A DNA stretch of 44,097 bases, from assembly GCA_019247195.1 (NCBI GenBank), contig JAFAPI010000092.1:1-44097 (forward strand), in the 5' to 3' direction. The first letter of the stretch is position 1. Each line of letters starts with the position of its first letter. This DNA comes from Gammaproteobacteria bacterium. Lineage in GTDB: Bacteria; Pseudomonadota; Gammaproteobacteria; Steroidobacterales; Steroidobacteraceae. The position numbers and the translations under genes were made by a program. Below the pieces are notes generated by a model that ran no database searches, had not been told where the DNA came from, and saw nothing but the letters and a program-made list of their open reading frames with translations. Positions 1 to 14,343 of this stretch are shown piece after piece.

Positions 1-1
1 C

Positions 2-1879
2 GGCTGGGACGGGGGATACGACTGGAGCCCGCTCTTCCCCGAGCCGCAGGCGTTCCTTAGCTGGCTGCGCGCGCGCGGTATCAAGCTCTCGCTCAACGAC
101 CATCCGGGCTACATCCACACCGACGAGAGCATCTTGTCGCTCGAAGACAGCCACGCGGGCCAGGTGCTGAAGGATCTGGGGCGCCCCGCTTCCGTATGGC
201 CGGGATTCGAGCTCGACCTGTCGCAGCACTGGTCCTTCGCGCCCGACGCGCGCGATGCCGGCCTCAGCCAGCGCTGGTATGAGGACCCGGCGCGCGCCCG
301 CTGGCGGCCGATCCGCATCGGCCTCCCCTGGCAGGCGCAGGGCTACGCCGGGCAGCTCGGCTGGTACCGCGCCTCCATCGACCTGCCGGCGCATCTGCCG
401 CCCCGCGTCATCCTCTATCTCGGGGCGGTGCGGCGCGCCTACCGGCTGTTCGTGAACGGCCAGGAGGCGCAGCCGAGCCGCATCCACTGGCCGCAGCGCC
501 TCACGCACACCGACATCACGCGCTTCATCCGTCCCGGCACCACCAACGAGATCCTGCTGCGGGTGGAAGCGGAGGGCGAGCGCGGCGGCGGCATCCTGCT
601 CGGACCCGTGGCGCTGCGCGACGTCGAGCCCCCGCCACGCATCGCCTTCGATCTCTCCAACCGCGAGCAGGCGCAGGTATCCATGCGCGATCTGCATGGG
701 CCACTCCTCGATCAGGGGGTCGACTTCTGGTGGGTCGACGGGGGGAGCGGGGCGACGGGCATGCCCGGCCTCAATGCGCAACTTTGGACCAACAAGGTGT
801 TCTACGACTACACGCAGGAGCACAGCGGCCGTCGCGCCTTCATCCTCGGCCGCTACGGTGACTGGGGGAGCGAGCGCTATCCGGGCTTTTTCACCGGCGA
901 TACGTATTCGCAGTGGCCGGTGCTCGCCTACGAGGTGGCCTTCACCGCGCGCGGTGGCAACGTGCTGGTGCCATACATCAGCCACGACATCGGTGGGTTT
1001 CACGGCGGGCGCATCGATTTCAACCTGTACGCGCGCTGGATCGAATTCGGCGTCTTCAGTCCCCTGCTGCGCCTGCACAGCGCCCACGCCAACCCGCGCG
1101 AGGGGAACCTGCGCATGCCCTGGCAGTACGGTCGCCGGGGCGTTGAACTCATGCGCCGCTACTTCACGCTGCGCCTGCAGCTGTTGCCCTACCTGTACAC
1201 CTACAGCTGGCTCGCGCACCGCGACGCGCTGCCCCTGCTGCGTCCGCTGTATCTCGCCTATCCACGCCTCGAGGAGGCCTATCACGCCTCCCAGGAGTAC
1301 CTGCTCGGCGCGGAGATGCTCGTGGCCCCGGTGCTGGATCCGGCGGGCAACGTGAGTATCTGGCTGCCGCCGGGTGAGTGGATCGACTTCTTCAGCGGTC
1401 GCCACTACGAGGGCGACCGGCGCTTCAGCGCACACTATGCGGTGGACGAGACGCCGGTGTTCGTGCGCGCCGGAGCGCTGATACCGCAGCAGGAGCCGGC
1501 CCTCTACTCCGACGCCCATCCCCTCGACCGGCTGTTTCTCGATGTGTATCCCGGCGCGGCGGGGCATTTCGATCTGTACGAGGATGACGGCGTCACCCTC
1601 GCCTTCGACAAGGGCGAGTCGGCGCTCACCGGGCTCAGCTACAGGGAAGGGCTCGATGGCGCGCACACGCTCACGATCGCCCCGACGCAGGGTGTCTTCC
1701 AGGGGCAGCCACGCGAGCGGGCCTGGCAGGTGCGCATCCACGCCGCCGCCGCGCCCGCCGAGATCCGCATCGATGGCCGGCCCGCGACCGCCTGGCGTTG
1801 GGATGCGGCGCACCTCACCGCCGAGGTCGCGCTGCCGAGCCGCAGCATCCGCACCGCCACCGAGGTCACCTGGCACTGA
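2..1879 (+). CDS. GH31 alpha-glycosidase, 5' end outside the window
   Basis: Predicted glycoside hydrolase of family 31 (alpha-glucosidase / alpha-xylosidase type). The frame is open back to base 2, so the start and N-terminal part lie outside; 625 residues are visible. The likely nucleophile is the Asp of WWVDGGSG (visible residue 246) and the likely acid/base the Asp of FFTGDTYSQW (residue 300), a normal GH31 spacing. SHDIGGFHG, LLPYLYTY, GAEMLVAPVLDP and DLYEDDG are family landmarks of the barrel and the C-terminal beta domains. Between HPGYIHTDE (about residue 40) and the nucleophile sits an insert of well over 100 residues containing a beta-rich stretch (GLPWQ, WYRASIDLP, YRLFVNGQEA) like the sugar-binding jelly roll of GH2 enzymes. 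It heads a plus-strand group of exported glycosidases. The true substrate (alpha-glucoside, alpha-xyloside, dextran-type) cannot be decided. A TTG at 134 is inside the gene and is not the start. Confidence 0.9.
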   Translation, partial: GWDGGYDWSPLFPEPQAFLSWLRARGIKLSLNDHPGYIHTDESILSLEDSHAGQVLKDLGRPASVWPGFELDLSQHWSFAPDARDAGLSQRWYEDPARARWRPIRIGLPWQAQGYAGQLGWYRASIDLPAHLPPRVILYLGAVRRAYRLFVNGQEAQPSRIHWPQRLTHTDITRFIRPGTTNEILLRVEAEGERGGGILLGPVALRDVEPPPRIAFDLSNREQAQVSMRDLHGPLLDQGVDFWWVDGGSGATGMPGLNAQLWTNKVFYDYTQEHSGRRAFILGRYGDWGSERYPGFFTGDTYSQWPVLAYEVAFTARGGNVLVPYISHDIGGFHGGRIDFNLYARWIEFGVFSPLLRLHSAHANPREGNLRMPWQYGRRGVELMRRYFTLRLQLLPYLYTYSWLAHRDALPLLRPLYLAYPRLEEAYHASQEYLLGAEMLVAPVLDPAGNVSIWLPPGEWIDFFSGRHYEGDRRFSAHYAVDETPVFVRAGALIPQQEPALYSDAHPLDRLFLDVYPGAAGHFDLYEDDGVTLAFDKGESALTGLSYREGLDGAHTLTIAPTQGVFQGQPRERAWQVRIHAAAAPAEIRIDGRPATAWRWDAAHLTAEVALPSRSIRTATEVTWH

Positions 1880-1885
1880 GCGATC

Positions 1886-1914
1886 TTGAGCCGGGCGCCC
1901 AAGCACACTATCGT
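1886..1914 (+). promoter_or_regulatory. possible sigma70 promoter upstream of the GH13 gene
   Basis: TTGAGC (1886-1891), a 17-base spacer and TATCGT (1909-1914) give a four-of-six match in each box. It lies just after the GH31 stop and about 65 bases before the chosen GTG start of the GH13 gene. Weak on its own; it would allow the GH13-GH65-oxygenase genes to be transcribed separately from GH31. Confidence 0.3.
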
Positions 1915-1978
1915 CCGGCCACTGCCTGAGGAGAAAGCGCGTGCCTTCCTTCCCCCCTCTGCCCACCCCGGTGCCGCG

Positions 1979-4105
1979 GTGAAGCGTCTGTGGATCTGGC
2001 TCACCGCGCTGTTGCCGGCGGCCGCTCCGGCGCCGCCCGCAGCGGAAAGCGTGACCGCGCGTACCGGCGCCGACGGCGGCTACATCCGCTGGCTGGAGGA
2101 GCGCTCGATGCTGCACGCCGCGCAGCAGCTCGCGCGGCAGTACGCCGGCAATTCGCTGCAGTGGCGCCACCCTTACGGTACCCCGCAGCCGCGCCTGGCG
2201 GTGTCACGAGCCTCGGTCTGGTTCACGGCCTACCCGGCCTCGACGATCCCGGCCAGCCCGGGGATGTCGGTGCTCGGCACCCTCGCCGATGAGCAGCTGT
2301 GGCGCGCCTTTCAGGCGATCGGCATCCAGGGCATCCACACCGGACCGATGAAGCGCTCCGGCGGCATCACCGACCGCACCTATACGCCCTCGGTCGATGG
2401 CAACTTCGATCGCATCAGCTTCGATATCGACCCGGCCTTCGGCAGCGAGTCGCAGTACAGGGAGATGGTGGCCGCCGCCAAGGCCCACGGGGCGATCGTC
2501 ATCGGCGACGTGATTCCCGGGCACACCGGCAAGGGGGCGGATTTCCGTCTCGCCGAGCGCGGTTATGCTGACTACCCGGGCATCTACCACATGGTGCGCA
2601 TCGAGCGCGGTGACTGGAGCCTGCTGCCGCCGGTGGCCGCGGGCCGAGATGCCGTGAACCTCAGTCCCGCGACCGTGGACACGCTGCAGGCCAAGGGCTA
2701 CATCGTCGGTCGACTCTCGTCCTCGATCTTCTACGAGCCCGGGGTCAAGGACACCGACTGGAGCGCGACCGACGTCGTGCGCGGCGTCGACGGCGTCGAG
2801 CGCCGCTGGGTGTACCTGCATTACTTTAAGCAGGGTCAGCCCACGCTCAACTGGCTCGACCCCACCTTCGGCGCCGAGCGCCTGGTGATCGGCGACGCGG
2901 TGCATGAGATCGGCGTGCTCGGCGACGGCATGCTGCGCCTGGACGCCAACGGACTGCTCGGCATCGAGCGCGACCCCAGCGGCAAGGTGTGGTCGGAGGG
3001 GCACCCGCTGTCGCTGACCGCGAACCAGCTGATCGCCGACATGGTGCGCAAGCTCGGGGGCTACACCTTCGAGGAGCTGGCGCTGCCCTTCGACACCATG
3101 CGCGAGATGTCGCGCGGCGGGCCGGATCTAAGCTACGACTTCGTCACGCGCCCGGCCTACGACTATGCGCTGCTGAGTGGCGATGCCGAGTTCCTGCGCC
3201 TGGTCTTTCAGCTGATGCGCCAGAACGAGGTGGATCCAGGGCGGCTGATCCACGCGCTGCAGAACCACGACGAGCTCACCATGGGTCTGGGACACTTCGC
3301 GGCGCACGGCGCCGATCGCTTTCCCTTCCGCGGCGGCGAGCTCACCGGGCAGGCGCTGCGCGAGCTGGTACAGAAGGAGATGTACGCGAAGCTGCTCGGC
3401 GTGCCCTATAACCTCAAGTTCGGGGACGGGGTCGCTTCAACCACGGCCACCGTGATCGCCGCCACCCTCGGGTTGCGGGACCTCGCCGCCCTGAGCGCCG
3501 CGGATATCGAGCGCATCAAGCAGCTGCACCTGCTTCTCGCCTTCTACAACGCGATGCAGCCGGGGGTCTTTGCGCTCTCGGGGTGGGACCTGGTGGGCGC
3601 GCTCACGCTCCCCGCGGATGCGGTGCGCCCACGCCTCGCCGACGGCGACACGCGCTGGATCAACCGCGGCGCCTACGACCTCTTGGGGACCAACCCGGAC
3701 GCGACCGCTTCCTCGGCCGGGCTGCCGCGCACCCGCGCCCTGTACGGGCCGCTGCCCGAGCAGCTGCGCCACCCAGACTCGTTTGCCTCCCAGCTCGCCC
3801 GGCTGCTCAAGGCGCGCGCCGAGCTCAAGCTGTTCGCCGCCCGCCTGGTCGATGTGCCGGCGGTGAAGGCGCCGGGACTGCTGGTACTGGTGCACGAGCT
3901 GCCCGAGGGAGCAGGCCTCGAGGTCACGGCGCTCAACTTCGCGCCGGCCGCGGTGCAGGAGCGGGTTGCGCTGCACGCGGCGGCCGCGGGCGCGCGGCTG
4001 ACGGACGTCCTCACCCCGCAAGCCGCGCCGCTGGAGATCGCCGCCGACCGCAGCGTGCAGCTACAGCTCAACCCTTACGAGGCCAAGGCATGGCGGATCC
4101 AGTGA
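1979..4105 (+). CDS. exported GH13 enzyme, trehalose-synthase-like
   Basis: Alpha-amylase-family (GH13) protein of about 708 residues, closest in layout to trehalose synthase / maltose glucosyltransferase. Visible motifs: GDVIPGHT (region I, with Gly where Asn is usual before His), GMLRLDAN with probable nucleophile D322, YTFEEL with candidate acid/base E365 or E366, and QNHDELT with H430-D431, as in the NHDELTL motif of trehalose synthases. I chose GTG 1979 because it begins a good signal peptide ([19 protein letters not shown]), placing the enzyme in the periplasm; a TTG at 1886 would add 31 non-signal-like residues. No strong ribosome site precedes 1979. Classical trehalose synthases are cytoplasmic, so export is unusual. 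The GH65 gene overlaps its 3' end. Substrate is inferred to be an alpha-glucoside, but isomerase, transglycosylase or hydrolase activity cannot be told apart here. Confidence 0.82.
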
Positions 4106-6372
4106 GGCCGCGCACGGGGCGCTGGCTGTGTGCGCTCCTGCTCGCGGCGAGCGCCGCTGCGCGCGCCGAGACCGATCCCACTTTCCTGCTGAAGGCGACG
4201 CCCGAGGATTGGCCGCGCTACTTCCCGAGCTACCTCGCGAACGGGTATCTCTCGAGCATGACCGGCCCGCGCGGCACCGAGAGCAACCCCGCGTACCTCG
4301 TGGCCTTCATGGACTACAAGAAGGAGGACATCGCGCGCCCGGCGGCGATCCCGGGCTGGAGCGGGATCGACTACAGCACCGGCAGCAGCACGGCGGGGCA
4401 GTTCTGGCTGAACAACACCAGGCTCAGCGACAAGTCCTTCGCCGACTACGGCCAGACCCTGAACCTCTACGAGGCGACGCTCACCACTCACTACCGCTAC
4501 ACGGATGACAGCGGCAAGCGCACCGCGGTCGTGGTGACGAGCTTCGCCAGCGAGGCCGCCCCGCACCTCGCCGCCTCGCAGCTCGCCATTACCCCGGAGT
4601 TCAGCGGCACCGTACAGCTCACCTTCTGGTTCACGCTCTGGGCGGAGCACCAGCCGCGCTTTCCGATCCGCACCATGAACGGCGAGGAGATGCAGGCCGC
4701 GGTCGCCGCCAACGACATGACGGTGCTCGAGCCGCTCAACCCGGCCACCCCTGATCGGGCGCCGGTCTGGTACTACGGCCATACCGAGGTTCGCGCTGGC
4801 GAGGCCGACGCGCGCGAGCTCACCTTCTGGCTCGACGGCCGCGCGATCGAGGGACTGTCCATGGCCGAGGCGGCCGCCGTGGGCGTGCCCGCCGATGCGC
4901 AGCCGAGCGACGTCAAGCTGATCCGCACCCCCTACCAGCTCGGCCTCACGCTGAGCGTACCCGTGCAGGCGGGGCACACCTATCGCTTCAGCAAGTACGT
5001 GGCCGTGGCTCGCCAGGGCTGGGGTGGAGATGCGCGCGAGATGCTCGGGGTGGCGAGCGCGGCGCGGGCGCAGGGTTTCGAGTCGCTGCTGGAGGCGCAC
5101 CGCGCCGCCTGGCACACGCTGTGGCAATCGGACATCCGCATCGAGGGCGACGCGCCGGCGCAGCAGGCGGTGCACTCGGACCTGTACTACCTGCTGTCGA
5201 ACTCCACCGTCGACACGGCGTGGCCGATGGGGGCCTGCGCGCTAACCCCCAACTATGCCGGGCACGCTTTCTGGGACAGCGACTCGTGGGTGTTCCCGGC
5301 GCTGCTGCTGCTGCACCCGGAGCGAGCCAAGCCCATCGTCATGTTCCGCCATCGCACCCAACAGCCCGCGCGCGAGCGCGCGCGTCAATATGGGGTGCGC
5401 GGCACGATGTATCCCTGGGAGGCGGACCCGGAGACCGGCGTCGACCACACCCCGTACTTCGCCTACGGCGTTTACCGTGAGATCCACGTCAATGCCGACA
5501 TCGCCATCGCACAGTGGCAGTACTACCTGGCGAGCGGTGATGACGCCTGGCTCAGGGAGCACGGCTGGCCGGTCATACGCGAGATCGCGGAGTTCTGGGT
5601 AAGCCGCGTCACCTACAATTCCGCCGCGCATCGCTACGAGATCCACCACGTGGTCTCGCCCGATGAGGCCTACGATGACGTGCCGAACGATTCGTTCACC
5701 AATGCCGCCGCCCGCAAGGCGCTGCAGATCGCGACCGCGGCCGCGCAGCGCGTGGGCGCGGCGCCTGACCCGCAGTGGGCACGGATCGCCGCCGACATGT
5801 ACATCCCGTTCTCGGCGCGCGAGCAGCGCCACCTCGACTTCGATGTCAGTGTGCCGCACGACAAGATCACCTGGATGGGCTCCTCGCTCTCCTGGCTCGT
5901 CTATCCGAACCTCGACCTGCCGATGAGTCCTCAGGTGCGGCGCAACGACTACGAGTTCCAGCTGCACGAGCTGAAGGTCCACGGCGACGACCCGAACGAG
6001 ATGATGATGGTGATGCTGGCGGTGCACGCCGCCGAGCTTGGCGAGGGCGATACAGCCGGGCAGTGGATCGACCGCAACCTGGTGGGGTTCCTCAAGCCGC
6101 CCTTCAACGTGCGCAGCGAGACCGCCGCGAACAATGCCGGCTATATCCTCTCCACCTCGGCGGGGTTCATCCAGAGCTTCGTCTACGGGCTGACCGGGCT
6201 GCGGATCACGGAGCAGGGCCTGACCCAGGCGTACGCGCCGGTGCTGCCCTCGTCCTGGAAGTCTCTCAGGCTGCAGAACGTGGCCTTCCGCGGCGCGCGC
6301 TTCGATATCACGGTCGCCCGCGATGCAGCCGGGCGCGTGCGGCTCACCCGCGTCCCGCACGTGCCCTCATGA
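4090..6372 (+). CDS. exported GH65 alpha-glycosidase (hydrolase-type)
   Basis: Family 65 glycoside hydrolase of 760 residues with an (alpha/alpha)6-barrel. [26 protein letters not shown] and [17 protein letters not shown] mark the catalytic domain; E526 in SPDEAYDD is the likely general acid. The stretch [19 protein letters not shown] resembles the matching part of mammalian PGGHG/ATHL1 glucosidase, and the His of the phosphate-binding loop of GH65 phosphorylases is replaced (MGSSLS), so I favour hydrolysis over phosphorolysis. Bacterial GH65 hydrolases acting on kojibiose are known. A signal peptide ([17 protein letters not shown]) places it in the periplasm. ATG 4090 has GAGG seven bases upstream and overlaps the GH13 stop; GTG 4102, overlapping that stop as GTGA, is the alternative. 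It ends in an ATGA overlap with the next gene, so the genes are probably translationally coupled. Confidence 0.85.
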
Positions 6373-7046
6373 GCGGCAGGTTCAGCTTCACGTTCCGCGC
6401 CGGCGAGGCCGGTCCGAGCCCCGGGGCTGCCCGCGCCGCGCCGGCCGCCGGGCCGGCGCTGAACGCGCTCGACCTGTTCCCCACCCGGATCTGGCAGGCG
6501 CGCCTCGAGCCGCTCGCGCCTCGACTGCCGGAATGGGTGGATGCCGTGCTGGCGATGCGCGCCGCGAGTCCGCGCCCCGCCGGGCGCACGGTGCGCCAGG
6601 GATGGAACAGCACCGACATGCGCGTGCTCGAGCGCGCAGAGTTCGCGCCCCTGCACGCGGCGATTCGTGCCGCGTGCCAGGTCGCGCTCGCCGAGATGGG
6701 TCTCGGCAACCGCGTCTTTCACCTGCAGTCCTGGATCAACCTGCACGACCGCGGCGGGTTCAATTTCCTGCACCTCCACGAAGGTTCGCTGCTCTCCGGC
6801 AGTTTCTACCTGCAGGTGCCGCCCGGCTCAGGCGCGTTCGTGCTGCGCGAGCCCCGGCCGGGTGTCATCCACGGCTCGGTCAAGGGTGTGGTTCCCAACG
6901 GCCACAGTGACGTGCACCTCACCCCCAGTGCGGGGCTGCTGGTGCTCTTTCCCTGCTGGATGGAGCACTACGTCGAGCCCCACGAGGGCGATAGCCCCCG
7001 CATCACCATCGCATTCAACGCGGTGGAGGGCGAGCCGCCCCGCTGA
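6369..7046 (+). CDS. PF13759 / TIGR02466-type 2OG-Fe(II) oxygenase-like protein
   Basis: 225-residue protein of the putative 2OG-Fe(II) oxygenase family PF13759 (TIGR02466). The double-stranded beta-helix signature is clear: WINLHDRGGFNFLHLHEGS with the family's HxH, SGSFYLQVP, then SAGLLVLFPCWMEHYVEP with the distal His and SPRITIAFN with the 2OG-type Arg. Residues 1-40 are Ala/Pro-rich and poorly conserved-looking. The ATG overlaps the GH65 stop (ATGA), so it is almost surely in the same transcript as the glycosidases. No signal peptide, so it should be cytoplasmic. The reaction is not known for this family; hydroxylation of a protein or small molecule is inferred from the fold only. The gene ends one base before the convergent TPR gene, which carries a related domain. 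Confidence 0.85.
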   Translation: MSGRFSFTFRAGEAGPSPGAARAAPAAGPALNALDLFPTRIWQARLEPLAPRLPEWVDAVLAMRAASPRPAGRTVRQGWNSTDMRVLERAEFAPLHAAIRAACQVALAEMGLGNRVFHLQSWINLHDRGGFNFLHLHEGSLLSGSFYLQVPPGSGAFVLREPRPGVIHGSVKGVVPNGHSDVHLTPSAGLLVLFPCWMEHYVEPHEGDSPRITIAFNAVEGEPPR

Positions 7047-7047
7047 A

Positions 7048-8877
7048 TCAGCCGGGGCCGGCCGGCACGGCATCGAAGGCGACCGTGAGGCGGGTGCCGC
7101 CGCCGTGAAAGGGCACCGTGCCGTGCCAGAAGTACGAGGGGAACAACACCAGCATCCCCTCAGCCGGCTGCACCTCGTGCTCGGAGGGTAGCGGCGGATG
7201 GGTCGGAAAGCTCGGCGTGCCGAAGCTCAGAAAGCCTGCCCGCGTGGGCGGCGAGGGGGCGGCCGGCAGCTCGATGTAGCAGGCCGAGGAGATCCAGCCA
7301 CGCGGGTGCACGTGAGCGGTGTGGAAACCCGAGCTGCGCAGCCGCACCGACCAGCTGCCATTGAAACGCCACCGGCCGGCGTTGCGGCGCCGCAGCGGAT
7401 CATTCCCGTGTCCGATGCGGGCGAGATACGCGTCGATCGGTGCGGCGAACGCACGGAACAATCCCTGGATGAGCGGATCGGCACTGCGGGTGAGGTCCTG
7501 CGTGGTCTCGGTGCCGTGACGCAGCGACTGGAAGAGCAGGGCGTGTCCCCCGGGGTCGTGCAGTCGCTCGAGGCTCGCGCGCAGCGCCGCGAGGAACTCC
7601 GCGAGGTTGCCCCACGGCGCCGGCGCCTCGAGCTGCACCGGCATCACCAGGCGCGTGTAGTCGCAGCGCTCCGCGTAGCGCGGATCCCCGAGTAGCCGCC
7701 AGGCGGTCGTCTCGAGGGCGATGAGATATTGATCGTCCGGGCTGCGGGCGAGGAGGGTCTCGCAATGCGGCAGCGCCCCTTTGGCCTCGCCGACACCGAG
7801 CAGGGCCGCGGCCAACACGGTGCGGGCCGCTCTGTTGTCAGGCGCGCGCGCCAGGGCGCGCTCCGCCAGGCGCACGGCCGCGGCCGGCTCGAACTCCAGC
7901 GCCGCGAGTGCACCGCGGACCAGGAGCGCGGGCGCTGCCCCGTCTGCCTGCAGCCACCGCTCGAGGCAGCCGTACGCGGCGCGTGCATCCCCCGCCCCCT
8001 GCAGCAGCGCCGCCTTGGCGGCCCAGAGCGTCACATCGTTCGCATGGTGCCGCAGCGCCGTATCGAGCGTCGCGGTGGCCTGGCCGAGGTCGCCGGTGCG
8101 CAGCCACACCAGCTGCGCGAGGCTGCTGTGCGCCTCACTCAGGCGTGGCTCGAGCCGCACCGCCTCACGCAGGGCCCGCTCCGCTTGCGCATGCTCGCCG
8201 GTGGCGATGAGGCTGCGCCCGTGCGCTAGGCAGAGCGCCGGACTGGCCGGCGCACGCTCGAGTGCCTGCGCCGCCACTCGCGCCGCGGCGGCGGGCTCTC
8301 CGGCGGCCTGCAGGGCCAGGCTGAGGCCGTGCGCGACGGCCGCCGAGGTGCCGTCGGCCTCGATGCGCTCGCGGTACAGGGCCACGGCCTCGGCCGGGCG
8401 ACCGAGGGCGGCCAGCGCGGCGACGTGCTGGGCCACAAGCTCGCTGTCCGCCTGACCCGAGGCGCACAATGGGGCGGCGATGGCGAGCGCGCGCTCGGGG
8501 CGGCCGCTGTCGTTGTAGAGTCGCGTGAGCAGCAGCGCGGCGCGTGGCATCGGGGGCGTGCCGGACGCCGCCCGTTCCAGCAGCGCCTCGGCCTCCTCCG
8601 TGCGTCCTGCGGCGAGCAGAAGTTCCGCCAGGGTGACGAGCGTGGGCGCCCAGGCGGGATCGAGCGCGAGCGCTCGGCGCAGCACTGTCTCAGCCGTGGC
8701 GGGCTCCCCCAGGGCGAGCTGGGTCCCGCCGAGGAGCCGCAGCGCCTCGGGGTAGTCCGGGTGTCGGGCGAGCACCGACTCCAGCTGCGCACGCGCGGCG
8801 TGCAGCTGCCCGGCGCGCAGCAGCTCGCCGATGCGTCGCATGGCCTCAACGGGTGGGGTACTCACCGTGCGGCACAT
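7048..8877 (-). CDS. TPR protein with C-terminal PF13759-like oxygenase domain
   Basis: 609-residue two-part protein. Roughly the first 400 residues are tandem TPR-like helical hairpins (for example PDYPEALRLLGGTQLALGEP and SEAHSSLAQLVWLR), a protein-binding scaffold. The last 200 carry a 2OG-Fe(II) oxygenase-like domain: RWRFNGSWSVRL, FHTAHVHPRGWISSACY (HxH), EGMLVLFPSYFWHGTVPF (distal His) and GTRLTVAFD (Arg). ATG 8877 has GAGG four bases upstream (strand sense); a TTG at 8904 was rejected because it lies at the A/T tract of the terminator. No signal peptide. It follows the TonB-receptor gene on the same strand beyond a strong terminator, so it needs read-through or a promoter in a 26-base gap. 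A scaffold plus oxygenase suggests modification of a protein partner, but none is identified. Confidence 0.87.
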   Translation of the reverse strand: MCRTVSTPPVEAMRRIGELLRAGQLHAARAQLESVLARHPDYPEALRLLGGTQLALGEPATAETVLRRALALDPAWAPTLVTLAELLLAAGRTEEAEALLERAASGTPPMPRAALLLTRLYNDSGRPERALAIAAPLCASGQADSELVAQHVAALAALGRPAEAVALYRERIEADGTSAAVAHGLSLALQAAGEPAAAARVAAQALERAPASPALCLAHGRSLIATGEHAQAERALREAVRLEPRLSEAHSSLAQLVWLRTGDLGQATATLDTALRHHANDVTLWAAKAALLQGAGDARAAYGCLERWLQADGAAPALLVRGALAALEFEPAAAVRLAERALARAPDNRAARTVLAAALLGVGEAKGALPHCETLLARSPDDQYLIALETTAWRLLGDPRYAERCDYTRLVMPVQLEAPAPWGNLAEFLAALRASLERLHDPGGHALLFQSLRHGTETTQDLTRSADPLIQGLFRAFAAPIDAYLARIGHGNDPLRRRNAGRWRFNGSWSVRLRSSGFHTAHVHPRGWISSACYIELPAAPSPPTRAGFLSFGTPSFPTHPPLPSEHEVQPAEGMLVLFPSYFWHGTVPFHGGGTRLTVAFDAVPAGPG

Positions 8878-8902
8878 TCTGCCTCGTACGCCGCGGTGCT
8901 CC

Positions 8903-8941
8903 AAAAAAAAGACCCCCCGCGCCCGGCAGGCGCGGGGGGTC
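8903..8941 (-). terminator. strong intrinsic terminator of the TonB-receptor gene
   Basis: Perfect 13-bp stem GACCCCCCGCGCC (8911-8923) / GGCGCGGGGGGTC (8929-8941) with a 5-base loop. Eight A on the plus strand (8903-8910) read as T8 after the stem on the minus strand. It begins 13 bases after the receptor stop codon and ends 26 bases before the TPR gene start. Confidence 0.93.
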
Positions 8942-8953
8942 GTTCCTAGCTCA

Positions 8954-11611
8954 TCAGAACAGGTACTTCGCCTGGACGTTGATCTCGCGGCCCTCGATCG
9001 GGCGCGCCATGATCACCCCACCGATACCGGTGTTGACACCGAAGATACGCGCGTTGCCTTCCGTGAGCGCGATCTGGTTGGTCAGGTTGGTACCCTGCAG
9101 GCGGAACTGCCAGTTCTTGCCCACATCCACCACCAGGCCGCCACTGAGCATGTAGTAGGAGCCGAGGGGCTGCAGGCCCGACTGGTCCTCGTAGCGCTGG
9201 CCGACGTGCTCGTAGGTGACCCACAGCGTGGCATCGCCCCAGGTGCCGGGCACGGTGTAGCTCGGCGTGACCCGGATCTGGAACTTCGGCTGCCGCTGCA
9301 GCGGCGCGCCGTTGATGCTGATGCACTGTGTGTTGCCGTTGATGTCCTTGTACGGCGCACAACCGATGTAGTCGGTGTACTTGCCGTTCATGTAGTCGCC
9401 TACCAGGCGGATGTTGAAGTGCTCGATCGGCGTCAGGGTGGTGATGAAGTTGATGCCTTTCGAGTCCGAGCCGTAGTTGGAGATGGCACTCAGCGGGTTA
9501 CCCTGGGTATCGGTCTCCTGGTACTGCAGACCGGTGAAGTCCTTCTTGTAGACGCTGATATCGACGTAGGCGAACTGGTTCTGGAACTTGAACCCCGCTT
9601 CGTAGTTGGTCAGTGTCTCCAGGGGCGAGAACTTGCCCATCGCGCCGCGGATGCCGTTGTCGAAGTCGTCGAAGTGCACACCGGTGTTGGCACGGGCATA
9701 GACGCTCATGTTCGACCCGATCTCGTAGTTGATGCCGCCGGTGTAGGAGGGCCGGGTGCGCACGTAGTGCTCATAGTCCCAGGTGCCGTTGCAGATCGGT
9801 ACGGCGTTGTCCCACAGGTCGAACGGTCCGCCCAGCGCGGTTGGCGTGCGGTTGCAGGTGCGCTGGTTCGCATCGAGTCGCTCGACACGCGCCGAGACGT
9901 CGATCAGCAACGGCCCCGACTTCCACGAGTTCGACAGGTACGCCGCGATGTTATTGGCGTTGCCGTGCTCGAGGATGTTGTAGTTGTTGTTGTAGCTGAC
10001 GAAACCCTGTGGACTGGTGATGTTGTACGTGCCGCCGGGGGCCGTCGCGCCCGCGCCGCAGGCGGGACCCGTGGCCCCGGTGCAGGTGAGCGTGATGGCG
10101 GTGGCGTGCGGCGTATTGGTCATGAGCATCGTGTTGCCGAGTGACCAGTTGTCGTCGTCGCTGTAGCGGGCCAGGTAGATCCCGCCGGTCAGCGTGTCGC
10201 CGTCGAAGATCATCCTGCTGACCCGGAACTCGTCCACCAGGTTCTTCAGCGTCTTCTGGATGTACCACCAGCCCTGGGTGATCACGCTCTGTGACAGCGG
10301 TACCGCACCGCCACCGACGTAGTTGGCGCTGACGGCGCCGGTCAGTCCCATCCCGCCCGGGCCGAGGTTGTTGGTGTCGACCGGAGTGCCGGTCCCGCTA
10401 CAGTAGCCCGCCGGCAACGGCCCGGCGGCTGCCTGGCAGCCGTACAGGTAGTAGCCGAGCGGCCGCGGGTTCGGACCCGAGAACAGCGCGTTGGTATTGA
10501 GGTGGCCGCCGTCGATCAGGAAGTTGTTGAGCACGTTCCAGTCGCCGAACTTCTGTTCCCACTTGCTGCCGAGGTAGTACAGCTCGCCACCGCGACCGTT
10601 GGCGAGATCGGCGTTCTCCAAGCCGCCACCGGGGTTCGGCAGCGTCACGTGCTGGATGTTGTGACTGCCGTAGGAACCGGTCAGCGGGTCGAAGCCCGGA
10701 TACGCGCCAAAACTGTCGCTGCCGGTCTGGATCAGGGGGATGGGCACGATGAACTGGTTCTTGTCATCGAGCGCCCGCGCCCAGAACATGAGTGACCCGC
10801 CATCCAGGTCGTGACTCAGGGTGCCGGTGAGCTGCCCGCCTTTGTCGGCCTTGAACTGCGGATCGCGCACGCCGTTCGACTCGCGGTAGAAGCCACCGAT
10901 GCTGCCGTACCAGCCCTCGCTGATCGGGAAGCCATAGAACCCGTCGACGCGGTACAGGCCCTCATTGCCGTAGGTGAGGCCCAGCGATCCGCTCGGCGTG
11001 GCCGTGCCGCGGCGCAGGATGAAGTTGGCCGTGGCGCCCATCTGACCGGGGCCGAAGATCGCGCCCGGGCCGCCCTGCACCACTTCGACGCGATCGACGG
11101 TATCGTCGAGACGGAACAGGGAGCTCGAGTCCATGAAGGAGAGCGAGGGCATGCCGTACATCGGCGTGCCTTCGATCATGTTGGTGAAGAAGGGCGCGTC
11201 GCCGCCGCCGGGAATGCCGGCGATCTCGATGTTGGCTCCCGTTTGTCCGCCCGAGGACTCGGGCCAGATGCCCGGCGACACCTTGAGGATGTCGGCCGTG
11301 CTCTTCGGGTTCGCCATGCGAATCTGCTCGGCGTCCGCCGAAACGATGTTGTAGCTCGCGTCGAGCTTCTTCACGCCGTTGGCGGCGTTCGCCGTGACGA
11401 CGACTTCCTGCAGCGAGTCGGCGGCGGGCGCCGTGGCCGGTGATTGGTCCTGCGCGTAGCCGGCGGCGCTGTACAGAATGCCGGCCACCGCTGCGGCGAC
11501 GGTGTTGGCGGCGGCGCCGCGCAGCCCCGGCCGTCGCATCAACGATAAGTCAAACGTGTGCTGCGCCAACCGGGCACTTCGTCGAAGTGCCTTGTTGCTT
11601 TTCCCTCTCAT
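8954..11611 (-). CDS. TonB-dependent outer-membrane receptor
   Basis: 885-residue TonB-dependent receptor, the outer-membrane gate for energy-coupled uptake. The signal peptide is long, with a basic stretch before the hydrophobic core ending near SAAGYAQ; such extended signal regions are common in receptors of this group. A TonB-box-like QEVVVTA follows, then the plug domain (VDRVEVVQGGPGAIFGPGQM, ANFILRRG) and a 22-strand-type barrel ending in NVQAKYLF with the C-terminal Phe needed for barrel assembly. ATG 11611 has an excellent GGAGG five bases upstream; ATG 11539 is a possible internal alternative. The 238-base leader holds an inverted repeat at 11783-11802, and a strong terminator follows the gene. 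Neighbouring GH31, GH13, GH65 and GH36 genes suggest an alpha-linked oligosaccharide as substrate, by context only. Confidence 0.95.
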   Translation of the reverse strand: MRGKSNKALRRSARLAQHTFDLSLMRRPGLRGAAANTVAAAVAGILYSAAGYAQDQSPATAPAADSLQEVVVTANAANGVKKLDASYNIVSADAEQIRMANPKSTADILKVSPGIWPESSGGQTGANIEIAGIPGGGDAPFFTNMIEGTPMYGMPSLSFMDSSSLFRLDDTVDRVEVVQGGPGAIFGPGQMGATANFILRRGTATPSGSLGLTYGNEGLYRVDGFYGFPISEGWYGSIGGFYRESNGVRDPQFKADKGGQLTGTLSHDLDGGSLMFWARALDDKNQFIVPIPLIQTGSDSFGAYPGFDPLTGSYGSHNIQHVTLPNPGGGLENADLANGRGGELYYLGSKWEQKFGDWNVLNNFLIDGGHLNTNALFSGPNPRPLGYYLYGCQAAAGPLPAGYCSGTGTPVDTNNLGPGGMGLTGAVSANYVGGGAVPLSQSVITQGWWYIQKTLKNLVDEFRVSRMIFDGDTLTGGIYLARYSDDDNWSLGNTMLMTNTPHATAITLTCTGATGPACGAGATAPGGTYNITSPQGFVSYNNNYNILEHGNANNIAAYLSNSWKSGPLLIDVSARVERLDANQRTCNRTPTALGGPFDLWDNAVPICNGTWDYEHYVRTRPSYTGGINYEIGSNMSVYARANTGVHFDDFDNGIRGAMGKFSPLETLTNYEAGFKFQNQFAYVDISVYKKDFTGLQYQETDTQGNPLSAISNYGSDSKGINFITTLTPIEHFNIRLVGDYMNGKYTDYIGCAPYKDINGNTQCISINGAPLQRQPKFQIRVTPSYTVPGTWGDATLWVTYEHVGQRYEDQSGLQPLGSYYMLSGGLVVDVGKNWQFRLQGTNLTNQIALTEGNARIFGVNTGIGGVIMARPIEGREINVQAKYLF

Positions 11612-11849
11612 GGAGCCTCCCCATGCGGATAACTGGTGAAAACCGTAGATCCCGCGGTCCCGTTAGAGGTACTGGGCTGCTCGGGCGCATCACGTCTTTT
11701 TTCCCCTCGAGGGACGCATACGCATCGTCGACCTGCACCTCGCAAAAAAACTGTAATTCGGAAACGGGGGGAGATACAAGGGTCGTTGCAAAATCGCAAC
11801 GAACCGTAAGCTTAAGCGGGAGAACGCAAAACGGGGGCAAACCGGTGGG
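11612..11849. other. intergenic region upstream of the receptor
   Basis: Longest non-coding stretch in the window, between the GH36 stop and the receptor start. It is clearly less G+C-rich than its surroundings, with short A/T runs (11744-11751). It holds a 7-bp-arm inverted repeat (11783-11802) and a 10-bp palindrome CCCTCGAGGG (11704-11713). On the minus strand TTGTAT, 17 bases and TTACAG form only a poor promoter match. No convincing gene. Confidence 0.6.
11783..11802. promoter_or_regulatory. inverted repeat, candidate operator for the receptor gene
   Basis: TCGTTGC (11783-11789) and GCAACGA (11796-11802) are perfect inverted arms separated by AAAATC. It lies about 172 bases upstream of the receptor start in an A/T-rich patch. 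The size fits a dimeric sugar-responsive regulator, but no such regulator is encoded in this window. Confidence 0.5.
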
Positions 11850-14051
11850 TCACGGCGGAGGCCGGTATGCGGGGGGTCGGATTTGCTCAAAAAAGACAAG
11901 TTCTGATGACAGAGGCGACATCAACGTGACGCTCACGCCCTCGCTGGCCAGGTCGCGGCCTGGCAGGACTTGCGTCGGCGCGGTGTGATCCGCAAAGCGC
12001 AGCCGATAACTGCCCGCCTCTTGCAGGCCCGTGAGGCGAAAACGCTGCACCGCCTCACCGCCTGAGCCGCGGAAGGCGTACAGCACGCCGCGTCGTCCGT
12101 CGTGTGTCACGTATTCGATCCCGTCCCAGTGCACGCCGTCGGGTCGCGGACCGGCGTGGTAGAGATCGGCGCTGCGGATGAGAGGCCGCAGCGCGCGCTT
12201 GTAAAGCGCGATCTGCGCGCGCGCTTCGGCGCGCTGGGTCGCGCTCCAGCTCGCCGGATCGAGCATGAGTGAGAACCATCCCAGCATCCCGCTGCGCAGC
12301 AGGTAGCGGAAGTTCTCCACTCGGGGCGTGGGCCACGCGGCCACGTAGCTCTCGAGCATCGCGGGGGGCAACACGTAGCTCGAGTCGTAAAAGGCGCGCC
12401 GGTTCGAGAGCGGATCGTAACTATCGGTGATGGAGAAATAATCGCCGTGTGCCGCGCTGCCGAAATCGACCATGCGGCCGCCGTCGTTACAGACCTCCAG
12501 GAGCAGCCGCGGGTGCTGCCGCCGTAGCGCCTCGTGAATCGCGTAGTAGGCACGCGTCGCGTGGTCGCTGACGTCGGTCGAGTTCGAGCCTTCGACCCAC
12601 AGGTATCCCGAATCCTCGTAGACGCGCACAGTACCGGGCGCGGGGGCCGCGGCCGGGTGGTCGGCACGGGTGCTCCCCTGGGCGACGAGGTAGCCGTCGT
12701 GCTCGAGCATGTCGAGGTGGAACGCGGTGATCGTGCGCTGCAGCTGCCCTTCGGCCCAGGCCCGGGCAGCCGGCACGCCCACATCGAAGGTGATGCCCTT
12801 GAACGGTTCGCGATGCTGCCAACCGGGCGGTGGATCGGCGATCAGCCAGTCACGGGTCTGCGGATCGTCGACCGAGCGGGCGCCGCGTCTGGCGGAGGTT
12901 CCGGCCTGCGTCCAGTCCATCCATAGCCCGAAGCGCAGCCCGTGGCGGTGCGCGAGATCGGCGAGCGCGGCCACACCGTGCGGGAACTTCACCGGGTCCG
13001 GGGCCCAGTCACCGACGTCGCGGAACCACCCGGCGTCGAGATGGAACATCTCAAGACCGAGCGCCGCGGCGCGCAGGATCATGCCTCGGGCGAGCCGCTC
13101 GTCCACGGCCATGCCCGCTCCCCAGCTGTTGCTCACGAGCAGCGGATAGCGTGGATCGGCGATCGTGGCGGGACGGTTGAGAGCGCCGCGCACCCAGGCG
13201 CGCAAGGAATTGCCGGCAGCGTCGGGGCCACCGGCGCTCGCACCCAGAAAAACGGTGGGCGTGGCGAACACCTCGTCCGCACGCAGCCGGGTGCGATAGG
13301 GCCCGGGCTCGGGATCCAGGCCCGCCTCCGCACTCAGCAGCTCCCCGACACGGCGCAGCGCGATACGGGTACGCCCGCTGAACTCGATGCCCACGTACCA
13401 CCCGGCGCGCGGGCCGCCCGCCTGCTCCACCAGCACATAGGGAATCATCTCCCGCTCCCGACCCGCGAGCGGGCGAGCGTAGGTACTCGAGCGACCCTCC
13501 CACGCGAAGTGCGGACCGACGGGGTCGAGGTGCGTGCCCTGCGCAGACGGGGTGTCCGCCCCCTTCTCGACCCAGAAACGCTCGAGCGTGCCGGTGGCCC
13601 CGATCTCCCAGGCGGACAGCAGACTCGGCTGGTGGGACAACCAGAGGTCCCGTCCGCTGTGATTCTCGAGCCGTACCGTGTGTTCGAGGGGTCCGGCGCC
13701 GAGCGGGGCCCGCCAGCGCCAGCGCCACGTCAGCCGTGGGGCGGCGCTCCGGTACACGAATTCCACCGCGCCGCGCTCGAGCCGACTGGCCGCGGCGTCG
13801 AAAGTCCACGTGAGCGGATGCGTGGTGCCGTCCATCTCGACGGAGGCGGGTGGCGGCTCCTCGCGCTCATTGCGCCAGTCGGGGCCGGCGGCACCGCGGA
13901 GACGCAGCAGCTTGGGGGCGGCGGGATCCGCTTCGAGCTCGAGCACCGTCTCGGTCGTCGCCAAGCGGGCGCGAACCGGTGCGCCTGCATCGGCGCGGTC
14001 GATGGAGGGCAGTCCGAGCAGCAGCAGAGCGATTGGCAATGCGCGCCGCAC
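11850..14051 (-). CDS. GH36-type alpha-galactosidase-like enzyme, exported
   Basis: About 733 residues, clan GH-D, closest to GH36 alpha-galactosidases. An N-terminal beta-supersandwich is followed by a barrel with MFHLDAGWFRDVGDW (the family's DDGWF-type motif) and KFPHGVAALADLAHRHGLRF. FHLDMLEHDGYL carries the likely nucleophile Asp, and DSYDPLSNRR the likely acid/base Asp. GTG 14051 was chosen because it starts a signal peptide (VRRALPIALLLLGLPSIDRADA) and follows the stop of the upstream lipoprotein gene by seven bases; the frame is open further upstream but only in low-complexity Arg/Ser/Pro sequence. Export places it with the GH31, GH13 and GH65 enzymes on the opposite strand. Activity on alpha-galactosides is the family expectation, but other alpha-glycosides are possible since the DDGWF-type motif is changed to LDAGWF. 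Confidence 0.85.
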   Translation of the reverse strand: MRRALPIALLLLGLPSIDRADAGAPVRARLATTETVLELEADPAAPKLLRLRGAAGPDWRNEREEPPPASVEMDGTTHPLTWTFDAAASRLERGAVEFVYRSAAPRLTWRWRWRAPLGAGPLEHTVRLENHSGRDLWLSHQPSLLSAWEIGATGTLERFWVEKGADTPSAQGTHLDPVGPHFAWEGRSSTYARPLAGREREMIPYVLVEQAGGPRAGWYVGIEFSGRTRIALRRVGELLSAEAGLDPEPGPYRTRLRADEVFATPTVFLGASAGGPDAAGNSLRAWVRGALNRPATIADPRYPLLVSNSWGAGMAVDERLARGMILRAAALGLEMFHLDAGWFRDVGDWAPDPVKFPHGVAALADLAHRHGLRFGLWMDWTQAGTSARRGARSVDDPQTRDWLIADPPPGWQHREPFKGITFDVGVPAARAWAEGQLQRTITAFHLDMLEHDGYLVAQGSTRADHPAAAPAPGTVRVYEDSGYLWVEGSNSTDVSDHATRAYYAIHEALRRQHPRLLLEVCNDGGRMVDFGSAAHGDYFSITDSYDPLSNRRAFYDSSYVLPPAMLESYVAAWPTPRVENFRYLLRSGMLGWFSLMLDPASWSATQRAEARAQIALYKRALRPLIRSADLYHAGPRPDGVHWDGIEYVTHDGRRGVLYAFRGSGGEAVQRFRLTGLQEAGSYRLRFADHTAPTQVLPGRDLASEGVSVTLMSPLSSELVFFEQIRPPAYRPPP

Positions 14052-14058
14052 GCGCGTC

Positions 14059-14343
14059 TCAGAACTGCAGCGGCCGCCGGGTGGTGCAGTTGAAGATGAC
14101 GGAGCTCTCGTGCTCGCCCTCCGGTCCGATGGCCCCGTGATCATAGAAGCTGTCGATCTCGGCCTGCCGACCGTGCCGGCTGCAATAGGCGTCCGCCTGC
14201 TCGACGGCGGCTTCATGCGCGCCGTAGTAACCGCCGGAGGGGGCCACCGCGCGGAGCGAGAGCTGGCCATTGCCCATCTCCTGCACGTCAAGTTGCGTGC
14301 AGGCGCTGAGCAGCACGGCCACGGCCAGCGCCTCGGTCCTCAT
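14059..14343 (-). CDS. small lipoprotein of unknown function
   Basis: 94-residue protein with a lipoprotein signal: MRTEALAVAVLLSAC, lipobox LSAC with C15 as the lipidated residue. The mature part has two further Cys (in DAYCSRHG and VIFNCTT) that could form a disulfide, and a small mixed alpha/beta pattern with no motif I recognise. The ATG at 14343 is chosen for the signal; upstream codons in the frame look non-coding. It ends seven bases before the GH36 start, suggesting an operon. Function unknown; membrane-anchored periplasmic location inferred. Confidence 0.72.
   Translation of the reverse strand: MRTEALAVAVLLSACTQLDVQEMGNGQLSLRAVAPSGGYYGAHEAAVEQADAYCSRHGRQAEIDSFYDHGAIGPEGEHESSVIFNCTTRRPLQF

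Follow-up and report, generated by a model that had tools for sequence, protein, structure and literature searches.

Why are two oxygenase-like genes of family PF13759 built into a block of glycosidase genes around a TonB-dependent receptor (TBDR), and what do they do there? The window (the whole stretch of DNA analysed, 44,097 nucleotides) is the entire contig C23 of gammaproteobacterial MAG G000 (3.18 Mb, 92% complete). The contig start therefore truncates the GH31 gene at its 5′ end. Every gene named in the initial annotation was found. The features are as follows.

2..1879, + strand: GH31 alpha-glucosidase/xylosidase-like gene, 5′-truncated (Pfam PF01055/PF21365/PF17137)
1979..4105, + strand: trehalose synthase (TreS; maltose alpha-D-glucosyltransferase) of the P. 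stutzeri type, with a signal-peptide-like N-terminus (TIGR02455)
4090..6372, + strand: GH65 kojibiose-hydrolase-like gene with signal peptide, overlapping the TreS stop (PF03632, 142 bits)
6369..7046, + strand: OXY1, stand-alone PF13759/TIGR02466 oxygenase-like gene (profile matches), with an ATGA overlap with GH65
7048..8841 (possible TTG start at 8904), − strand: TPROXY, TPR superhelix plus C-terminal PF13759 domain (Pfam, structural model)
8911..8941, − strand: strong intrinsic terminator, 14-bp stem, U8 (−39.3 kcal/mol, z −4.3)
8954..11611 (alternative start 11539), − strand: TBDR, Plug plus barrel (PF07715 and PF00593)
9302..9304, − strand: TBDR Pro746 in the 861-aa numbering (770 in the 885-aa form)
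10436..10462, − strand: TBDR stretch PLGYYLYGC, P360-C368 in the 861-aa numbering (P384-C392 in the 885-aa form)
11850..14051, − strand: GH36 melibiase-like gene with signal peptide and GTG start (PF02065, 90 bits)
14059..14343, − strand: small predicted lipoprotein with lipobox LLSAC, just upstream of GH36

OXY1 and TPROXY are arranged tail-to-tail with 1 bp between their ends, and the ATGA overlap of OXY1 with GH65 agrees with the initial description of one PF13759 gene as coupled to the glycosidases. The hairpin at 8911..8941 lies on the strand shared by the TBDR gene and TPROXY, downstream of the former and upstream of the latter; because this strong terminator separates the two genes in the window, their co-transcription is uncertain. 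Signal-peptide-like N-termini are visible on TreS, GH65 and GH36, the same three proteins for which signal peptides had been noted. Neither OXY1 nor TPROXY has a signal peptide, and both are therefore predicted to be cytoplasmic. No Pfam family matched the small lipoprotein.

Sugar enzymes and likely substrate

The block had been described as containing four glycosidases. This description holds for GH31, GH65 and GH36. The fourth gene, assigned to GH13, scored 921 bits against TIGR02455 (TreS_stutzeri; curated cut-off 719.4) in the NCBIfam profile search, and its Pfam Alpha-amylase score was under the cut-off. Since it meets the TIGR02455 cut-off, its product is assigned as a maltose/trehalose isomerase, not a hydrolase, and the signal-peptide-like N-terminus makes it possibly periplasmic. 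Among the loci searched, TreS was found in the window alone; the 80 related loci listed gave no match. The kojibiose leaning suggested for GH65 was borne out, in that kojibiose hydrolases are its closest relatives: the protein scored 351 bits against the kojibiose hydrolase equivalog NF053734, below the cut-off of 800, and its nearest PDB entry is kojibiose hydrolase FjGH65A (7fe3, E 1e-76), followed by the collagen-disaccharide glucosidase PGGHG (9sd7). GH36 has a weak resemblance to characterised alpha-galactosidases. Full-length GH31 proteins in relatives have about 890-950 aa.

The usual gene order in Rhodanobacter, Dyella, Fulvimonas and Rudaea is LacI - GH65(-HAD) - TBDR - MFS - GH65 - TPROXY - GH65 - trehalase - lipase. 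In Steroidobacteraceae-type MAGs, TBDR and TPROXY lie beside genes for a 3-keto-disaccharide hydrolase, gluconate-dehydrogenase subunit 3, a GMC oxidoreductase, GH36 and GH31. TBDR homologues without an oxygenase adjoin trehalases and an MFS carrier, with a LacI-type gene in some genomes. The trehalases, MFS carriers, LacI, GH65 and 3-keto-disaccharide enzymes around the TBDR indicate that the block probably serves TonB-driven uptake and breakdown of trehalose-, kojibiose- or maltose-type small alpha-glucosides. A single polysaccharide target set by GH31 and GH65 was considered and rejected because the accessory enzymes vary between loci.

Two further genes of these loci were recorded. One, at L130:4013-7108 in Rhodanobacteraceae, encodes a GH65-HAD fusion (phosphorylase plus phosphoglucomutase-like) beside LacI and TBDR. 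The other (cluster c6, 20 loci; e.g. L058:4208-6184 and L147:2427-4496) encodes a secreted protein of ~660-690 aa, often adjoining GH65, that matches no Pfam family and has a very weak PDB match to an archaeal-type glycogen debranching enzyme (E 0.004). It is possibly an undescribed glycosidase family.

Oxygenase proteins and their co-inheritance with the receptor

Both oxygenases exceeded the PF13759 cut-off of 27 bits (OXY1, 77.4 bits; TPROXY, 73.8 bits). OXY1 also exceeded the TIGR02466 cut-off of 62.5 with 78.9 bits, and TPROXY reached only 30. The residues H135xH137...H200...R211 are invariant in the OXY1 orthogroup, H510xH512...H573...R584 are invariant across 54 TPROXY relatives, and the same metal/2OG-type pattern HxH...H...R is near-invariant in a wider PF13759 family set. 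Both proteins may use 2OG/Fe chemistry. dN/dS between relatives was 0.11-0.25 for OXY1 and 0.16-0.27 for TPROXY, indicating that both are real, maintained genes.

The OXY1 model had an overall pLDDT of 74 with a disordered N-terminus. Its nearest folds are members of its own family, 3bvc and 2rg4 (Z 20). Outside the family, the closest were the Pseudomonas prolyl hydroxylase (Z 16, the EF-Tu complex 4iw3 included; Z 16.4 for 4j25) and PHD2 (Z ~15); this resemblance is one of fold only and says nothing on a protein substrate. The TPROXY model (pLDDT 93.7) consists of an OGT/SPY-like TPR superhelix, with an arm of approximately 390 residues, and a 3bvc-like oxygenase domain.

When named genomes were scanned, the TPROXY alignment matched at least 80 loci, at least 52 of them at ≥55% identity. 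Flanking sequence reached 5 kb or more in 34 of the TPROXY loci among the matches listed, and 33 of these contained a TBDR of the same clade. Because these loci had been found via TPROXY, we repeated the analysis in an unbiased manner on 147 genomes of one Rhodanobacteraceae-type family, with ≥63% identity defining a TPROXY ortholog. An ortholog was present in 36 of the 147 genomes, and all 36 also had the TBDR clade. The neighbourhood is thus conserved in related genomes, and the initial reading, which placed PF13759 proteins inside a block for alpha-glucoside uptake, is supported. TBDR and TPROXY were spaced 1.3-7.1 kb apart on the same strand in 31 of the 36 genomes and were on separate contigs of fragmented assemblies in the other 5. 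Receptor trees confined this TBDR clade to loci of the present type.

The converse did not hold. Many TBDRs of the same clade in the 147 genomes occurred without TPROXY, and the 40 TPROXY-negative loci that we read retained the syntenic order but lacked TPROXY. At least seven gains or losses of TPROXY mapped to well-supported branches of the receptor tree. TPROXY depends on the locus, and the locus is independent of TPROXY. Since many Rhodanobacteraceae genomes carry the same locus without it, TPROXY has no essential role, and an integral part of the oxygenases in sugar uptake is not supported. OXY1 was found in 11 of 35 TPROXY-positive loci and in none of 36 TPROXY-negative loci. It is often tail-to-tail with TPROXY, and the glycosidase gene beyond it varies (GH65, GH31, GH36, GH125 or DUF1080). 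The oxygenases are an accessory layer on the locus.

Nothing pointed to a defence or phage function. Two apparent signals were discarded. The grouping of TPROXY-positive receptors as one clade in the first tree was a sampling bias that disappeared after the unbiased family scan, and a difference in LacI content between TPROXY-positive and TPROXY-negative loci was an artefact of flank length.

Other TPR-PF13759 genes and known systems

From the order and class, 54 PF13759 genes of TPR length were examined, 32 of them with full flanks. A TBDR gene was located within 6 kb of 18 of the 32, vs. 4 of 22 stand-alone PF13759 genes (p 0.01); the chance level, a rough estimate from receptor density, was ~12%. 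These receptors were mostly of other kinds than the locus receptor, and the presence of TPR-PF13759 genes beside unrelated TBDRs without glycosidases also tells against an integral role in sugar uptake. Other neighbours encode TPR-sulfotransferases, TPR-AspH hydroxylases and tryptophan halogenases. Five loci (L103:7107-9947, L275, L277, L286 and L287) contain one-polypeptide fusions of TPR, PF13759, TPR and Sulfotransfer_3, followed by a stand-alone PF13759 gene and beside a TBDR. The window's own genome has a related set at L114 (G000:C231:1-8199), consisting of a 1003-aa TBDR, a PF13759 gene truncated where the contig ends, a TPR plus PF05118 hydroxylase and a TPR-sulfotransferase; similar sets occur in L090, L255, L265, L267 and L272. 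Caulobacterales relatives of TPROXY are mostly away from TBDRs, near housekeeping genes. Because TPR-PF13759 genes lie beside unrelated TBDRs together with other TPR-modifiers, the recurring unit is evidently a TBDR plus a TPR-modifier, with sugar genes as one context. No published account of a TBDR/PF13759 association was found in the openly licensed literature.

The Caulobacter receptor CciT strictly needs the cytoplasmic dioxygenase CciO for its function, and its authors proposed substrate synthesis, inhibitor removal or substrate oxidation as models for CciO (PMC12004947). As in CciT-CciO, PiuA-PiuC and Fiu-YbiX, a TBDR gene here lies beside a co-conserved gene for a cytoplasmic Fe(II)/2OG-type dioxygenase (PMC12004947). 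However, the oxygenases of the window match only PF13759/TIGR02466 and one has a TPR arm. They were considered as PiuC homologues and rejected, there being no profile match to the CciO/PiuC/YbiX family. The receptor here lies among glycosidases, trehalases and a sugar carrier, with sugar genes on all sides, and probably not in the Fur iron regulon as in the CciT-CciO case; it scored 33 bits against siderophore receptor models (cut-off 223). Unlike CciO, the oxygenase here is often missing from the same locus and is dispensable. CciT-CciO is the closest published parallel, which the present locus resembles in outline without being a member. The block had been put forward as an undescribed system. 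That claim needs a qualification: a partnership of a TBDR with a cytoplasmic dioxygenase is published (PMC12004947), for a different oxygenase family and an iron receptor.

The dextran locus FjDexUL of Flavobacterium johnsoniae likewise combines GH31, a GH65 of the kojibiose-hydrolase type and a TonB-dependent transporter, but it is a SusC/D system, and the gammaproteobacterial locus has trehalose synthase, GH36 and oxygenases instead (PMC10316084). SusD/SusE, GH66 and GH97 were not found among the locus genes; for SusD this covers the eight window genes and the scanned neighbour genes of relatives. The structures 2RG4 and 3BVC (TIGR02466/PF13759) have the same family, fold and HxH...H...R residues as the window oxygenases, but represent stand-alone proteins, and TPROXY adds a TPR arm. 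AspH also has an N-terminal TPR part, which is needed for substrate hydroxylation (PMC6817910), and a C-terminal double-stranded beta-helix oxygenase; it differs from TPROXY in oxygenase family (PF05118) and in its location in the ER lumen. A Pfam search revealed no PF05118 domain in the window oxygenases, so that only the TPR plus oxygenase architecture is common with AspH. The protein prolyl hydroxylases PPHD (Pseudomonas putida prolyl-4-hydroxylase) and PHD2 showed 12-17% identity. Prolyl hydroxylases of this kind have HxD where the PF13759 family has HxH. Their HxD...H metal triad was absent from OXY1 and its family, which have HxH...H.

Receptor residues and candidate explanations

Receptor residues that track the oxygenases were sought as possible client residues. 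No TBDR residue tracked TPROXY over 46 TPROXY-positive and 40 TPROXY-negative receptors. P746, P360, Y363 and C368 of the receptor tracked OXY1. All OXY1-positive receptors except that of L132 have a loop NPxPLxYYLYGC and Pro746 within GxPLQRQP; L132 has OXY1, and its receptor lacks both Pro746 and the loop. Among the aligned OXY1-negative receptors, Pro746 was absent from all and the loop from all but one (L209). On the tree the OXY1-positive receptors occupy a single connected stretch, so that these residues rest on about two events. Columns lost on both sides numbered 8 shared vs. 3.6 expected (hypergeometric p 0.013, uncorrected for phylogeny or rate variation). We regard Pro746 and the NPxPLxYYLYGC loop as a possible lead and not as evidence for a modification site.

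The exceptional receptor of L209 (G450:C9) keeps the YYLYGC loop in a locus with neither oxygenase. Away from the receptor locus, the same genome contains a TPROXY-like gene (54%) whose reading frame includes a TGA.

The accessory association is real, conserved and mostly undescribed, and its function we infer. We tentatively favour, at somewhat less than even odds, accessory hydroxylation by the cytoplasmic PF13759 oxygenases of an envelope client of the locus, most likely the receptor, with a tuning rather than an essential effect. The TBDR would carry the sugar into the periplasm, where secreted GH65, GH31 and GH36, together with a trehalose synthase in the periplasm, would trim or interconvert it; in relatives, the MFS carrier and the GH65-HAD phosphorylase-mutase fusion would complete its use. 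The TPR superhelix of TPROXY may bind a protein client and hand it to the C-terminal Fe(II) oxygenase domain, and OXY1 may be a second hydroxylase of the same family in the same pathway. Among the envelope proteins of the locus, the TBDR prior to export would be the likeliest client, and its modification would tune it without being essential. In favour of this explanation are the dependence of TPROXY on the receptor, the recurrence of TPR-PF13759 genes beside unrelated TBDRs, the fold matches and the CciT-CciO precedent; against it are the lack of any TBDR residue that follows TPROXY, the exceptions L132 and L209 to the OXY1-linked residues, the many loci without TPROXY, the terminator and the Caulobacterales relatives away from TBDRs. 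A broader and more specific form of this explanation, which we consider unlikely, is that TPR-guided cytoplasmic enzymes of Proteobacteria (PF13759 or AspH-type hydroxylases, sulfotransferases and halogenases) post-translationally modify new TBDRs before export, altering ligand range or evading phages or toxins; TPROXY and OXY1 would then hydroxylate the alpha-glucoside receptor, OXY1 perhaps at Pro746 and/or the NPxPLxYYLYGC loop.

The predicted cytoplasmic location of both oxygenases, and the place of OXY1 in the glycosidase operon overlapping GH65 or GH31, would also suit enzymes acting on a cytoplasmic small molecule, which might be the sugar taken up, a sugar conjugate or some inhibitor. 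The three proposals of the CciO authors (PMC12004947) are of this kind, and the differences in the receptor loop and P746 may identify a receptor type whose ligand is different. However, a long TPR superhelix suggests a protein client, TPR-PF13759 genes lie beside many unrelated TBDRs without sugar genes, and the glycosidases alongside differ from locus to locus; we judge action on a small molecule to be rather unlikely, at roughly one chance in four. Alternatively, the oxygenases might sense O2, iron or 2-oxoglutarate and adjust expression of the locus by modifying a regulator or translation component in the cytoplasm. In favour of this, the nearest folds outside the family are the oxygen sensor PHD2 and a Pseudomonas prolyl hydroxylase solved with EF-Tu, and a terminator lies between TBDR and TPROXY. 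LacI and response-regulator genes nevertheless belong to the locus whether or not TPROXY is there, and the association is with many different TBDRs, not with one regulator, leaving a sensor role improbable.

The oxygenases might also be passengers, carried beside the receptor without acting on the locus. TPROXY is patchy with its seven or more changes, it is cleanly absent from otherwise identical loci, and no receptor residue tracks it. Against such a reading stand the receptor kept in every one of the 36 TPROXY genomes, an association that persists in several lineages although gene order and orientation have been rearranged, dN/dS of about 0.1-0.27 and the like association with other TBDRs; we consider it quite improbable.

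If the oxygenases do modify the receptor, as in the explanation that we favour, outer-membrane transporters would be subject to a regulated or tuning post-translational modification made in the cytoplasm. This would bear on why dioxygenase genes adjoin TBDRs in CciT-CciO, PiuA-PiuC and TPR-PF13759 clusters. The question can be tested directly in harmless soil bacteria, thanks to natural presence/absence pairs such as TPROXY-positive and TPROXY-negative Rhodanobacter loci.

One group of receptors (clade B, comprising L129, L136, L138, L143, L144, L165 and others) has a very long stem of 0.73 changes per site in otherwise slowly diverging loci. The long stem coincides with absence of OXY1, except in L132, and suggests a possible ligand switch.
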